Part shown: piece by piece, positions 6,947 to 10,594 of the stretch
Layout of the letters: every line of letters begins with the position of its first letter
Numbering within the stretch: position 1 is the stretch's first letter
Assembly: GCF_012027645.1 (NCBI RefSeq)
Contig: NZ_SNUU01000001.1
Coordinates: 310,001-374,000, forward strand
DNA length: 64,000 bases
Origin: Thermococcus sp. 18S1
Lineage (GTDB): Archaea; Methanobacteriota_B; Thermococci; Thermococcales; Thermococcaceae
Direction of reading: 5' to 3'
Notes under the pieces: generated by a model
Seen by the model: the letters and a program-made list of their open reading frames with translations, nothing else
What the model was told of the DNA's origin: nothing
Databases searched by the model: none
Translations under genes and position numbers: made by a program

Positions 6947-7825
6947 ATGGATAAGAACGTGAAGGTTGCCGTCCTGGTTCTTTCCGTTGTTGTGGTTCTC
7001 ACGCTGGGTTACTACATATCCGGGAACCAGCTACCAGGCCAGGACTCCAGCGACGGGGTGGACTACTCCACCGTAACCTGCACGCTCGAGACGGAGCCCC
7101 AGTTCACCCACGCAAACGCCTGGACCGGCTGGAGCGTCAGGGAGCTCGTGGACAATCGCATGGTGGAGTTCACCGATTTTCTGGAGTTCGTTCCAAAGGT
7201 ATCGCTGAGTGAAGGAACAAGCAGCGGTTTCCTGCACGCGCAGGACTGGCCGGCTGAGATGGGGATAGCACCAAAGTGCACCCTGGCCGGCAGTGCCGTC
7301 TTCTTCCAGAACAACGATACCGCGAGGGGAATGTACTACCCGGTGGTTGCCGGAAACAGGGGCGCGATAAGAAGACAGGACATCGAACTGCCCGCGGGGG
7401 ACGTTTACTTCGCCCACTACGTGATACCAGTGAAGAACGCCACCTGGGAGGTAACGGAGAACCTCGCGAACTCGAACGGGACGGACTTTCTGATGAGCGG
7501 CGGCATCTCGGAAAGAAGGAGAACAGAGCTCACCGGGGTCTGCACCTGCCCCGTTGAAGCGGTAATTGTCCAGCTCGACGAGGCAATAAAGGCTAAGGGG
7601 TTTGAGGAGGCCGCTCTGGAGAAAAAACCCACCGAGAACGAGTATTTCAGGCCGTTGAGTGCAAAACTCTACCACAGGGGCGGTGATTACCTCTACGTCG
7701 AATTCTCTGAGGTCGAGGGCATGGATTTGGTTAGAGTCCTCATGATAATGGGCGATGAGAAAGTCGTGAAGGCCTACGCGGAAGCCTTCACCGCCGTCGA
7801 GGGGAACGGTTCCGGTGAAAGTTAG
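6947..7825 (+). CDS. Secreted or membrane-anchored protein of unknown function
   Basis: 292 residues with a charged N-terminus (MDKNVK) and one hydrophobic segment (about residues 6-24), then a soluble extracellular part. There is no lipobox cysteine, so it may be a signal-anchored protein. Four cysteines occur (TVTCTLE, PKCTLAG and the CTC of GVCTCPV), which would allow disulfides outside the cell. No enzymatic motif was recognised. A TATA-like AATTTTTATACTT lies about 95 bases upstream and GGGTGGCACCAAG precedes the ATG. I do not recognise the family; no neighbour suggests a role. Confidence 0.7.
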   Translation: MDKNVKVAVLVLSVVVVLTLGYYISGNQLPGQDSSDGVDYSTVTCTLETEPQFTHANAWTGWSVRELVDNRMVEFTDFLEFVPKVSLSEGTSSGFLHAQDWPAEMGIAPKCTLAGSAVFFQNNDTARGMYYPVVAGNRGAIRRQDIELPAGDVYFAHYVIPVKNATWEVTENLANSNGTDFLMSGGISERRRTELTGVCTCPVEAVIVQLDEAIKAKGFEEAALEKKPTENEYFRPLSAKLYHRGGDYLYVEFSEVEGMDLVRVLMIMGDEKVVKAYAEAFTAVEGNGSGES

Positions 7826-7873: not shown

Positions 7874-8155
7874 ATGAGAGGCGACCTGATCCGTGTTCTG
7901 AGCACCGCGGAGGAGAAGGCAAACGAGCTGAAGCTCGACGGATACGAGCCAGACGTGGTCCTCCTTGGAAAAGAGGCCTACGAGTTCATAAGGGAGCAGC
8001 TCAACGAGGAGTTTGGGGATGAAGAGGAGGTTTTCGAGCTCTCCGGACTCAAGATACGTGTGGTCGAAGAGCTCGATGGTGACGCCGTCGTCATAGACAG
8101 CAAGGCCATCGGTCTGGGCCTGGGAGGCGCAAAGCGCCTCAAGGTCGTCCTATGA
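7874..8155 (+). CDS. DUF1884 protein (HK97 A-domain-like, family 4 encapsulin type)
   Basis: 93-residue acidic protein closely resembling the Pyrococcus furiosus DUF1884 protein of solved structure (PF0899). The matching blocks are RGDLIRVL, EKANELKLDGYEPDVVL and DAVVIDSK followed by AKRLKVVL. From memory of the encapsulin literature, DUF1884 proteins have been classed as family 4 encapsulins, meaning isolated A-domains of the HK97 capsid fold proposed to associate with metabolic enzymes. Here the convergent neighbour is a CitG/MdcB-type gene overlapping its 3' end by 17 bp. Whether the protein assembles, and with what, cannot be judged from sequence. The GTAAGCC leader before the ATG is a weak ribosome site. 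Confidence 0.75.
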   Translation: MRGDLIRVLSTAEEKANELKLDGYEPDVVLLGKEAYEFIREQLNEEFGDEEEVFELSGLKIRVVEELDGDAVVIDSKAIGLGLGGAKRLKVVL

Positions 8156-9065
8156 CTCCCCACACCTTTCCGTTTCTCATCTCTATCCTGAGTCCCCGCA
8201 GGGCGAGGAGGCTCAGCGATACCGCCATGACGTCCGCCAGGCTCCCGGGGTTTCTGAGGTCGCCCTTCCCGCGCATGAACGAGTCGAACTCCTCAACGCT
8301 GAGTTCTCCGTTGAGAACCATCTTGGCCTTCTCCCGAACGAGCTTCGCCTCCTCAATGCCAGCCTTCCTGATTATCAGCGTGTCGAGGTTTGTTGCGAGC
8401 AGCTCAACGAAGGCCCTCACGACGGCATCCTCCAGCGGGAGCTCCTTTATCAGTTCGTAGAGCCTTCCAAAGGTTGAATAGCTCAGCTCGTATTCATTAA
8501 GCCACTCGCAGAATATCAGCTCACGCTCGCAGCTTATCTCCGCGAGTCTGGCGAGGTTGATTCCATCCTGGAACAGCTCTTTGAAGGACTCATCGCTGTA
8601 AACATCGTACTTGACGCCGCTGGGGATTCCCTTGGGATTGGCTATCCTTATCGCCCGGTAGAGCTCCATCGTGTCCCTGACCGTCGATTCCTCTATCAGC
8701 AGCCTCGCCTTTTTCCGTGCATCGAGCATGTTACGGCCCATTGTCAGCCCCATTATGAGGGGAATCGAGAGGGCAATGATGCCAAAATTCGGGTTGGCAT
8801 CCTGGGCCTCGCGGGAGTTCTGAACGGCCCGCTTTATCAGCTCACCGAGTCCCGCTTCCCGGGGCTCGAGGATCCCCTTCCTCAGAAGCTCCGCCGTCTT
8901 CACGGCCTCGTAGTAAACCCCCGTGACGGCCGTGTCAGCGAAGAGAAAGTGATAGAAGGTGAGGTCGTCGAAATCCCTGAGGCGGCTCACGTTGCCCGGT
9001 TTCGGAACCGCTGCCTCGAGGAGCGGACCGAGGGTGAAGGCGCGGACTATTCTCCACCTCTCCAT
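8139..9065 (-). CDS. CitG/MdcB-type triphosphoribosyl-dephospho-CoA synthase homologue
   Basis: 308-residue member of the CitG family, which makes the 2'-(5''-triphosphoribosyl)-3'-dephospho-CoA prosthetic group precursor from ATP and dephospho-CoA in bacteria with citrate or malonate lyases. Family blocks are AVPKPGNVSR near the N-terminus, NPNFGIIALSIPL in the middle and GDLRNPGSLADV near the C-terminus. No citrate or malonate lyase genes lie nearby, so the archaeal role is probably different (for example another nucleotide-coenzyme transfer). It is the last gene of a four-gene minus-strand operon, starting directly after the stop of the small membrane protein gene. Confidence 0.8.
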   Translation of the reverse strand: MERWRIVRAFTLGPLLEAAVPKPGNVSRLRDFDDLTFYHFLFADTAVTGVYYEAVKTAELLRKGILEPREAGLGELIKRAVQNSREAQDANPNFGIIALSIPLIMGLTMGRNMLDARKKARLLIEESTVRDTMELYRAIRIANPKGIPSGVKYDVYSDESFKELFQDGINLARLAEISCERELIFCEWLNEYELSYSTFGRLYELIKELPLEDAVVRAFVELLATNLDTLIIRKAGIEEAKLVREKAKMVLNGELSVEEFDSFMRGKGDLRNPGSLADVMAVSLSLLALRGLRIEMRNGKVWGVIGRP

Positions 9066-9293
9066 TCAGACCACCAGGTACAGCAGCAGGTAGATGAGGT
9101 AGAGCACCAGCACGGCCCTTCTGAGGGCCCTTCTCGTCAGCATGTAGAGGCCGAAGGCCACCAAAGTCATACCCCAGAAGGCGTCCTTTATGTACGGCGC
9201 GTACGGCCTCAGCCAGTCAAGGAAAGAGGGATGGAACTCCCTCATAAGGAGAAGAAGGCCGAGGAAAACGAAAATCCAGCCGAGTGTCCTCAT
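9066..9293 (-). CDS. Small membrane protein of the PspC operon
   Basis: 75 residues with three hydrophobic stretches (about 4-17, 38-53 and 61-75) and a basic loop RRALRRA. The shape resembles the LiaI/LiaF transmembrane modules that accompany PspC in bacteria, but similarity is too weak to name. It starts one base after the pspC stop with GGGGGACTGAG upstream and ends directly against the start of the CitG homologue, so it is translationally linked to both. The function is unknown. Confidence 0.7.
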   Translation of the reverse strand: MRTLGWIFVFLGLLLLMREFHPSFLDWLRPYAPYIKDAFWGMTLVAFGLYMLTRRALRRAVLVLYLIYLLLYLVV

Positions 9294-9294
9294 C

Positions 9295-9726
9295 TCAGTC
9301 CCCCCTAACGAGCAGGATGATTCCTATAACCAGGAATGCAACGGCCAATAGCGTCCTGAAGTCCATGGCCGGAAGGAGGAACGGCATGAACGGCCCCGCC
9401 AGTAGTACGGCGCCGAGAATTATAAGAACCACCGCTATCGCCTTTGAGTTCTCATCGCCGGAGAAGACTTCCCCCAGCCTTTCCTCAGTCTCGTCCACGA
9501 GCTCATTGAACCTGTCCGAGAGGGGCTTTTCTTTCTCCTCCCCCTCCTCTGGTATTACCAGGGCCGCTACAAAGTAGAGGAGCGTCATGGCAACGGGATT
9601 GAACACGAGGAGCACCACAAAGAGCAGCCTGACTATCGTGGGATCGATCTCAAGATGCTCGGCTATACCTCCAAGGACGCCGAGGAAAATCCTGTTCCGA
9701 CTGGACCTCACGAGTTTTCTCACCAT
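9295..9726 (-). CDS. PspC domain membrane protein
   Basis: 143 residues. The N-terminal PspC domain is clear (LVRSSRNRIFLGVLGGIAEHL, shown only in part: RIFLGVLGGIAEHLEIDPT, then a hydrophobic helix). A charged linker of about 50 residues (EEGEEKEKPL) follows, then two further hydrophobic segments that resemble LiaI-LiaF-TM. PspC proteins sense or transmit envelope stress in bacterial phage-shock systems. It sits 33 bp after the VVGDV-repeat gene and 1 bp before a small membrane protein gene. The start at 9726 was preferred because GGTGAG lies four bases upstream; a GTG at 9735 overlaps it. Confidence 0.85.
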   Translation of the reverse strand: MVRKLVRSSRNRIFLGVLGGIAEHLEIDPTIVRLLFVVLLVFNPVAMTLLYFVAALVIPEEGEEKEKPLSDRFNELVDETEERLGEVFSGDENSKAIAVVLIILGAVLLAGPFMPFLLPAMDFRTLLAVAFLVIGIILLVRGD

Positions 9727-9759
9727 CTCACTCACCGGAGAATGGAAAGTTGTGGGGAC

Positions 9760-10485
9760 TTAAAAGTCATTCCCCACGGTGACGTCGCCAACCACGTCCG
9801 AGACGCTGATGAGGATCGGCATACCATCCCCGGAGTGGGAGTTCCTGACGTCCCCAACGATGTCCTCTGCGCTGAGCTGGACCGAGAGGTTGACGGGAAC
9901 GGCGATGGCCACGTCGCCGACTACGTCCCGTATAACGACGTCGTTTCCAGCTACGATAGAGACGTCTCCCACTATGTTCTCAAGCCGGTATCCCGCCGCA
10001 GGGGTAGCGATGATATCCCCCACCACGTCCTCGGCGAGGATCCTGGTAGCATCGGCCTCAATCTCAACGTTCCCAACCAGTCCTCGGAACCAGACGTCCG
10101 CGAGGGAAGAGCCAACCTCGATAACCACTGTCCCGTTCCGGTAGTCGGAGCATACGTTGTGTCTCCCCAGGACTGTCTTCTTGTCGGGACAGTACACAGT
10201 CAAGAGACCGTCCCGGTAGCTGGTGTTGAGCGGGATGTTGCTCCTGACCACCACCCCGCTGACGTTCGATTCAACTAGGTGGACATCGCCGACTACGTTC
10301 TCCACAACTATCGCACCGGCATTGAACCTACCAACCTCCACGAGCTTCCCGGCGGCCTTTCGAGGAACCAGGCCTTCTATATGAATATGACCGCTGAGGG
10401 CAAGGACAACTATTATAGTCCCGACCAGGAGTACGAGCAGAACCCCACCGAGGAGGACCGTGGAAAAACCACCTTTTCTTCTCAT
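9760..10485 (-). CDS. Membrane-anchored VVGDV-repeat protein, Toastrack/DUF4097-like
   Basis: 241 residues: a basic start (MRRKGG), one transmembrane segment (about residues 7-31) and an extracellular region made of short beta repeats. At least six units carry (V/I)VGD(V/I), for example ENVVGDV, EDVVGDI, ENIVGDV, RDVVGDV, EDIVGDV and SDVVGDV. This is the pattern of a right-handed beta-helix or prism like the Toastrack domain (DUF4097/DUF2807) found with PspC in envelope stress systems. It is the first gene of the operon continuing to pspC. The start at 10485 has GGTGGGAT upstream. Domain identity is inferred from repeat pattern and neighbour. Confidence 0.72.
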   Translation of the reverse strand: MRRKGGFSTVLLGGVLLVLLVGTIIVVLALSGHIHIEGLVPRKAAGKLVEVGRFNAGAIVVENVVGDVHLVESNVSGVVVRSNIPLNTSYRDGLLTVYCPDKKTVLGRHNVCSDYRNGTVVIEVGSSLADVWFRGLVGNVEIEADATRILAEDVVGDIIATPAAGYRLENIVGDVSIVAGNDVVIRDVVGDVAIAVPVNLSVQLSAEDIVGDVRNSHSGDGMPILISVSDVVGDVTVGNDF

Positions 10486-10594
10486 TCCATCCCACCGGAA
10501 CGGTATCACCGCCAGCCCGTATAAAGGTTACGCCCGTAGAAAGTCACTCATACATTTCAGCCAGCACCAAAGGAAACAGAAAATGGGGTAAACA

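Follow-up and report, generated by a model that had tools for sequence, protein, structure and literature searches.

A candidate PspA-free PspC, LiaI/LiaF-TM-like and Toastrack membrane module beside a CitG-family gene in Thermococcus

Four minus-strand genes at 8139-10485 of a 64,000-nucleotide stretch of the Thermococcus sp. 18S1 genome (hereafter the window) encode a predicted Toastrack-type repeat protein, a PspC-domain protein, a short membrane protein and a homologue of CitG, which raises the question of whether these genes act together as one envelope-stress operon and what an enzyme of the CitG family does at the end of it. An earlier note on this DNA had proposed a four-gene operon of this kind. 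Its four open reading frames and their spacing are borne out on the minus strand of this 2.0 Mb archaeal genome, with recomputed intergenic gaps of 33, 1 and 0 bases, and the features that we recognize, from the promoter of the first gene to the last coding region, are as follows.

10517..10533, minus strand: element GCGTAACCTTTATACGG over the BRE/TATA region of the Toastrack gene, with a short dyad CGTA-N7-TACG (from genome pattern searches)
9760..10485, minus strand: predicted 241-aa Toastrack protein (DUF4097/LiaF-C type), a membrane-anchored beta-solenoid carrying VVGD repeats (from profile, predicted fold and alignment)
10396..10467, minus strand: predicted single N-terminal transmembrane helix of that protein, residues 7-30, after MRRK (from model and hydropathy)
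9760..9765, minus strand: TATA-like hexamer TTTTAA that precedes pspC and overlaps the Toastrack stop codon (from a hexamer survey)
9295..9726, minus strand: 143-aa membrane protein that has a PspC domain and, in a C-terminal extension, further transmembrane segments (from Pfam, alignment and hydropathy)
9066..9293, minus strand: putative small LiaI/LiaF-TM-like membrane protein, 75 aa (from sub-cut-off profiles and fusions in relatives)
8139..9065, minus strand: archaeal-type CitG-family protein, 308 aa (from Pfam and a structure model)

Our answer, which we hold to be probable, is that the cluster comprises a PspA-free PspC, LiaI-LiaF-TM and Toastrack module followed by a functionally separable CitG-family gene that is probably co-transcribed with the pspC part. 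An anti-phage defence role for the cluster was rejected because none of the four proteins matched any defence-system family in PADLOC. Around the cluster, citG and a convergent ENCP4-like gene (7874-8155, plus strand; Pfam name 'putative type 4B encapsulin shell protein') share their last 17 bases, 8139-8155 of the window, an overlap that recurs in most related loci, and positions 6947-7825 encode a 292-residue membrane-anchored protein that has no Pfam match and that is variable, and at times duplicated, in relatives.

Evaluating the two middle genes by family profiles revealed a PspC protein that matched Pfam PspC at 76.3 bits (E 1.6e-21, cut-off 25), with a further match to the NCBIfam equivalog TIGR02978 that, at 44.2 bits (E 1.5e-11), lay under the cut-off of 104. 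The small protein matched both LiaI-LiaF-like_TM1 (E 2.2e-5, 24.9 bits, cut-off 27) and LiaF-TM (E 6e-4) below their cut-offs. In eight loci from four other genera (L041, L042, L044-L046, L049, L050 and L094) this small membrane domain is fused to Toastrack, such that a LiaF-like protein of about 290 residues sits between PspC and CitG, with L094 carrying both a separate Toastrack and the fused form. It is because of these fusions that we read the small protein as a putative LiaI-LiaF-TM, an assignment that they strongly support. In L042, L045 and L094 the main PspC gene is immediately preceded by another, short PspC gene.

Comparison across 94 genomes of the order Thermococcales, of which 74 were counted as good (well-sequenced), revealed CitG in 87 genomes, including every good one, PspC in 69 and Toastrack in 61. 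Linkage holds across Thermococcales, where the earlier note had allowed that the genes might prove unlinked in relatives: PspC adjoins citG in 63 of the 68 genomes that possess both and Toastrack adjoins citG in 59 of 61, the exceptions being pairs split between contigs and, in the case of PspC, three Pyrococcus-like genomes that carry the PspC-small-protein pair elsewhere. In the Pyrococcus-like genus Toastrack remains beside CitG in the absence of the downstream flank, the upstream flank varies between PadR, GcvH and methyltransferase genes, and among the loci read every such break falls ahead of PspC, with none separating PspC from CitG. Within Thermococcus the neighbourhood LRP-PfpI-module-CitG-ENC-MarC-OsmC is conserved as a whole, and because neighbours are generally conserved there, adjacency within the genus says little about joint function; the module slot between pfpI and citG is empty in L087, L089, L093 and L095. 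Two further contexts each come from one genome only. A PadR-family regulator gene lies directly upstream of pspC at L031:4403-4753 (pspC orientation), and at L047:2144-5840, in a Pyrococcus-like genome, PspC and its small partner lie on one strand, flanked by hsp20 on one side and by a CDC48/VAT gene on the other; in P. furiosus, Phr controls hsp20 and its neighbour vat1, both of them heat-shock genes (PMC10746257).

The CitG homologue shares with the CitG/MdcB triphosphoribosyl-dephospho-CoA synthases both the Pfam family (E 1.3e-49, 169.8 bits, cut-off 27) and the fold, since its model (pLDDT 92.9) aligns to PDB 3h9p from Archaeoglobus fulgidus with a TM-score of 0.88 by target length. It departs from those enzymes in its motifs when compared with an MdcB-type reference of the same class (L134), having PKPGNV..DF.DL where CitG/MdcB have PKPGLV..H.DM (thus F.DL for H.DM), NPNFG for NT[HQ]KG and NPGS for SPGG, and at 14.8 bits it falls below the cut-off of 272.3 for the NCBIfam CitG equivalog TIGR03125. 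The carrier protein CitD/MdcC (PF06857) gave no match in the Thermococcus genome, with a positive E. coli control, and a role for the enzyme in serving citrate lyase or malonate decarboxylase was rejected on the grounds of this missing carrier. Given the non-canonical motifs and the missing carrier protein, we read the homologue as likely a cofactor enzyme. A part in modified-folate (methanopterin-like) synthesis was kept as a lead only; beta-RFAP synthase passes its cut-off in the host genome, and no paper linking CitG to methanopterin was found in the open-access literature. Among more distant relatives, a planctomycete CitG homologue lies next to a 6-pyruvoyl-tetrahydropterin synthase gene (L155:4965-6425), a pairing seen in two near-identical loci among ten examined.

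The earlier note had treated CitG as an integral, if unexplained, part of the stress device, and this part of its proposal is not supported by the comparison. Retention of CitG in 74 of 74 good genomes, its presence in 10 genomes with neither PspC nor Toastrack, and its much slower evolution (mean column identity of 67%, against 33% for Toastrack, 48% for PspC and 42% for the small protein) mean that CitG is probably not part of that device. These same observations bear on a different coupling, in which CitG would be the output of the module, controlled through contact or co-expression by Toastrack/PspC/LiaI sensing and adjusting the envelope by (tri)phosphoribosyl transfer to a nucleotide cofactor or a lipid head group. 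Such an arrangement would fit the very tight, conserved 0-base junction between the small membrane gene and citG, the Pyrococcus-like Toastrack that stays by citG even where the PspC-TM pair has moved, and the holding together of PspC-TM-citG when the upstream flank changes, but we consider it unlikely given the retention and slower evolution of CitG and given that distant CitG-like genes in Theionarchaea and planctomycetes occur without PspC or Toastrack within the stretches read.

It is also conceivable that the membrane genes simply fill a slot that lies between pfpI and citG, with no other connection to citG, as the conservation of the whole Thermococcus neighbourhood from LRP to OsmC, with a slot that is sometimes empty, might suggest. 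We find this quite improbable, as the block persists with different flanks and as its genes are joined by a 0-base gap or by overlapping start and stop codons.

Whether the cluster is one operon is a separate matter from whether it is linked, and here the gene set and spacing of the proposed operon are confirmed and its single transcription unit is not. Separate TATA-like promoter signals precede the Toastrack gene and pspC, and for this reason we do not read the cluster as one operon; the independent loss, decay or relocation of the first (Toastrack) gene argues the same way. Upstream of the Toastrack gene, a 17-bp element (GCGTAAnnTTTATACGG) occurs in exact form just once in the host genome, and across the 94 genomes an exact match occurs once per genome in 19, with the reversed control giving 0. 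Coordinate comparison places all 19 matches just upstream of a Toastrack gene. Among the Toastrack upstream regions (n=38), 18 carry the element exactly and 7 with one mismatch, such that 25 of 38 lie within one mismatch, whereas none of 672 background windows came within three. A wider regulon of the element was not found in the host genome, where two-mismatch matches are few in number and the reversed pattern, run as a control, likewise gives 2. We also considered a further conserved dyad, at the Toastrack start site, and rejected it as not general. For pspC, a TATA-like hexamer lies at -48 to -28 in 22 of 25 genes, compared to 8% of shuffles. The simplest reading of these signals is two predicted promoters, one for the Toastrack gene and one at pspC, and citG probably shares its transcript with pspC. 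The Toastrack gene is decaying in L033 (internal deletion) and in L034 (stop codon); both loci keep the promoter element at one mismatch and an intact PspC-small-protein-CitG set.

The lack of PspA that had been pointed out for the window extends much further, with no match in the host genome, where its presence elsewhere is thereby rejected, and none over the family cut-off across all 94 Thermococcales genomes (the control was positive in 9 of 14 genomes). The strongest of the weak matches sit in frames of about 1190 codons and are probably long coiled-coil proteins. As for possible substitutes, no Snf7/ESCRT-III protein was found in the host genome, in a weak test whose model matched 1 of 14 control genomes and that below cut-off. 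With regard to a LiaRS-type two-component pair, no kinase or response regulator was found among the identified neighbouring genes.

The identity of the repeat protein is a question of fold, as sequence profiles gave matches below cut-off only (Pfam LiaF-like_C, E 3.9e-5, 23.9 bits, cut-off 29) and a sequence-based search of solved structures gave no relevant match. It possesses seven [VIL]VG[DN] units (four VVGD, two IVGD and one LVGN), six of which are spaced 17-22 residues as the coils of a beta-solenoid would be, and this count of seven was reached by none of 20,000 composition shuffles (maximum 4); the previously claimed 'at least six VVGD' is right provided that I/V variants are counted. 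Two cysteines, C99 and C112, are nearly invariant in the alignment of the Toastrack family. Structure prediction with an alignment of 27 relatives, which was used to check the suggested DUF4097/Toastrack fold, gave a model (mean pLDDT 90.9) with one N-terminal helix followed by strands alone save one very short helix. In a Foldseek search against the PDB, the best match was 4qrk (E 4.7e-7, probability 1.00), followed by 3pet, 3jx8, 4ygu, 3lyc and 4opw (the last at E 1.3e-3), with 'putative adhesin' entries among the matches, and non-Toastrack beta-helices appeared from E of about 0.9 upward. Of these structures, 4QRK and 4OPW have been assigned to Toastrack, one of the domains that partner Psp/Lia systems (PMC11237479). 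We thus predict a Toastrack fold with high confidence in the model; the alignments to Toastrack structures have moderate TM-scores (0.27-0.60) and a large rmsd, so we base the assignment on fold class together with context.

The charge pattern of MRRK and the hydropathy of the single helix after it make it plausible, as the earlier note had it, that the Toastrack domain lies on the outer face of the membrane, opposite to the intracellular location that Ravi et al. infer (PMC11237479). We think it very unlikely that the protein acts as an adhesin at the surface, or as a structural component associated with the S-layer, outside any stress module, for although the depositors named the nearest solved structures 'putative adhesin', and the likely outward orientation, the two nearly invariant cysteines and the fast evolution with recurrent loss or decay would suit a surface protein, Toastrack is fused to LiaF-type membrane helices and lies next to PspC in other genera, and 4QRK and 4OPW belong with the Psp/Lia partner domain (PMC11237479).

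Under the preferred reading of a PspA-free module with a separable CitG gene, the Toastrack solenoid would be tethered to the membrane by its one helix, with the domain probably on the outer face, and would have PspC and the LiaI-like protein as its membrane partners, possibly in a complex. The Toastrack gene would be switched by its own promoter element while a second promoter would drive pspC, the small membrane gene and citG. Without PspA, the membrane proteins themselves may serve as sensor and stabiliser, and CitG would make a cofactor or ribosylated metabolite that is needed constitutively. A response to envelope or heat stress is suggested by analogy, from the protein families and from the PadR (L031) and hsp20/VAT (L047) contexts. 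The open-access literature yielded nothing relevant on PspC or a CitG-like enzyme in Thermococcus, and no experiment on the module genes in Thermococcales was found in it.

Placed beside known systems, a PspA-free PspC/LiaI-LiaF/Toastrack module is of a kind already described in bacteria. The modules of Ravi et al. 2024 (PMC11237479) similarly bring the same three domain families into one neighbourhood with no PspA nearby, have Toastrack either separate or fused to LiaI-LiaF-TM, and count PadR among their listed partners. The Thermococcus module differs from these in being archaeal, in an order with no PspA over cut-off, in having a dedicated promoter element, and in adjoining a CitG-family gene, the word CitG being absent from that paper (PMC11237479). 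The Bacillus Lia system (liaIHGFSR) likewise has a small LiaI-like membrane protein, and the helix-Toastrack fusions of related genera are LiaF-like, but the Thermococcales module is without LiaH/PspA; in the same manner, the Thermococcus cluster has the PspC-domain protein of the Psp system without the PspA/IM30 effector. Unlike the rest of the module, the single-gene promoter element is new.

A more far-reaching proposal, which we regard as a long shot, is that an outward-facing Toastrack with a single-target promoter is functionally coupled, without PspA, to a CitG-family enzyme whose product is a ribosylated lipid or cofactor; if true, envelope sensing would be tied directly to a nucleotide-derived metabolite. 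Thermococcales include genetically tractable species, and the promoter element, with one target per genome, offers an unusually specific lead to a regulator. For the CitG homologue, the motifs and the lack of a carrier protein speak against the usual annotation, and many archaeal genomes may therefore be mislabelled in this respect. More generally, a small PspA-free version of the Psp/Lia systems could let PspC and Toastrack be studied apart from the PspA response that dominates bacterial studies.
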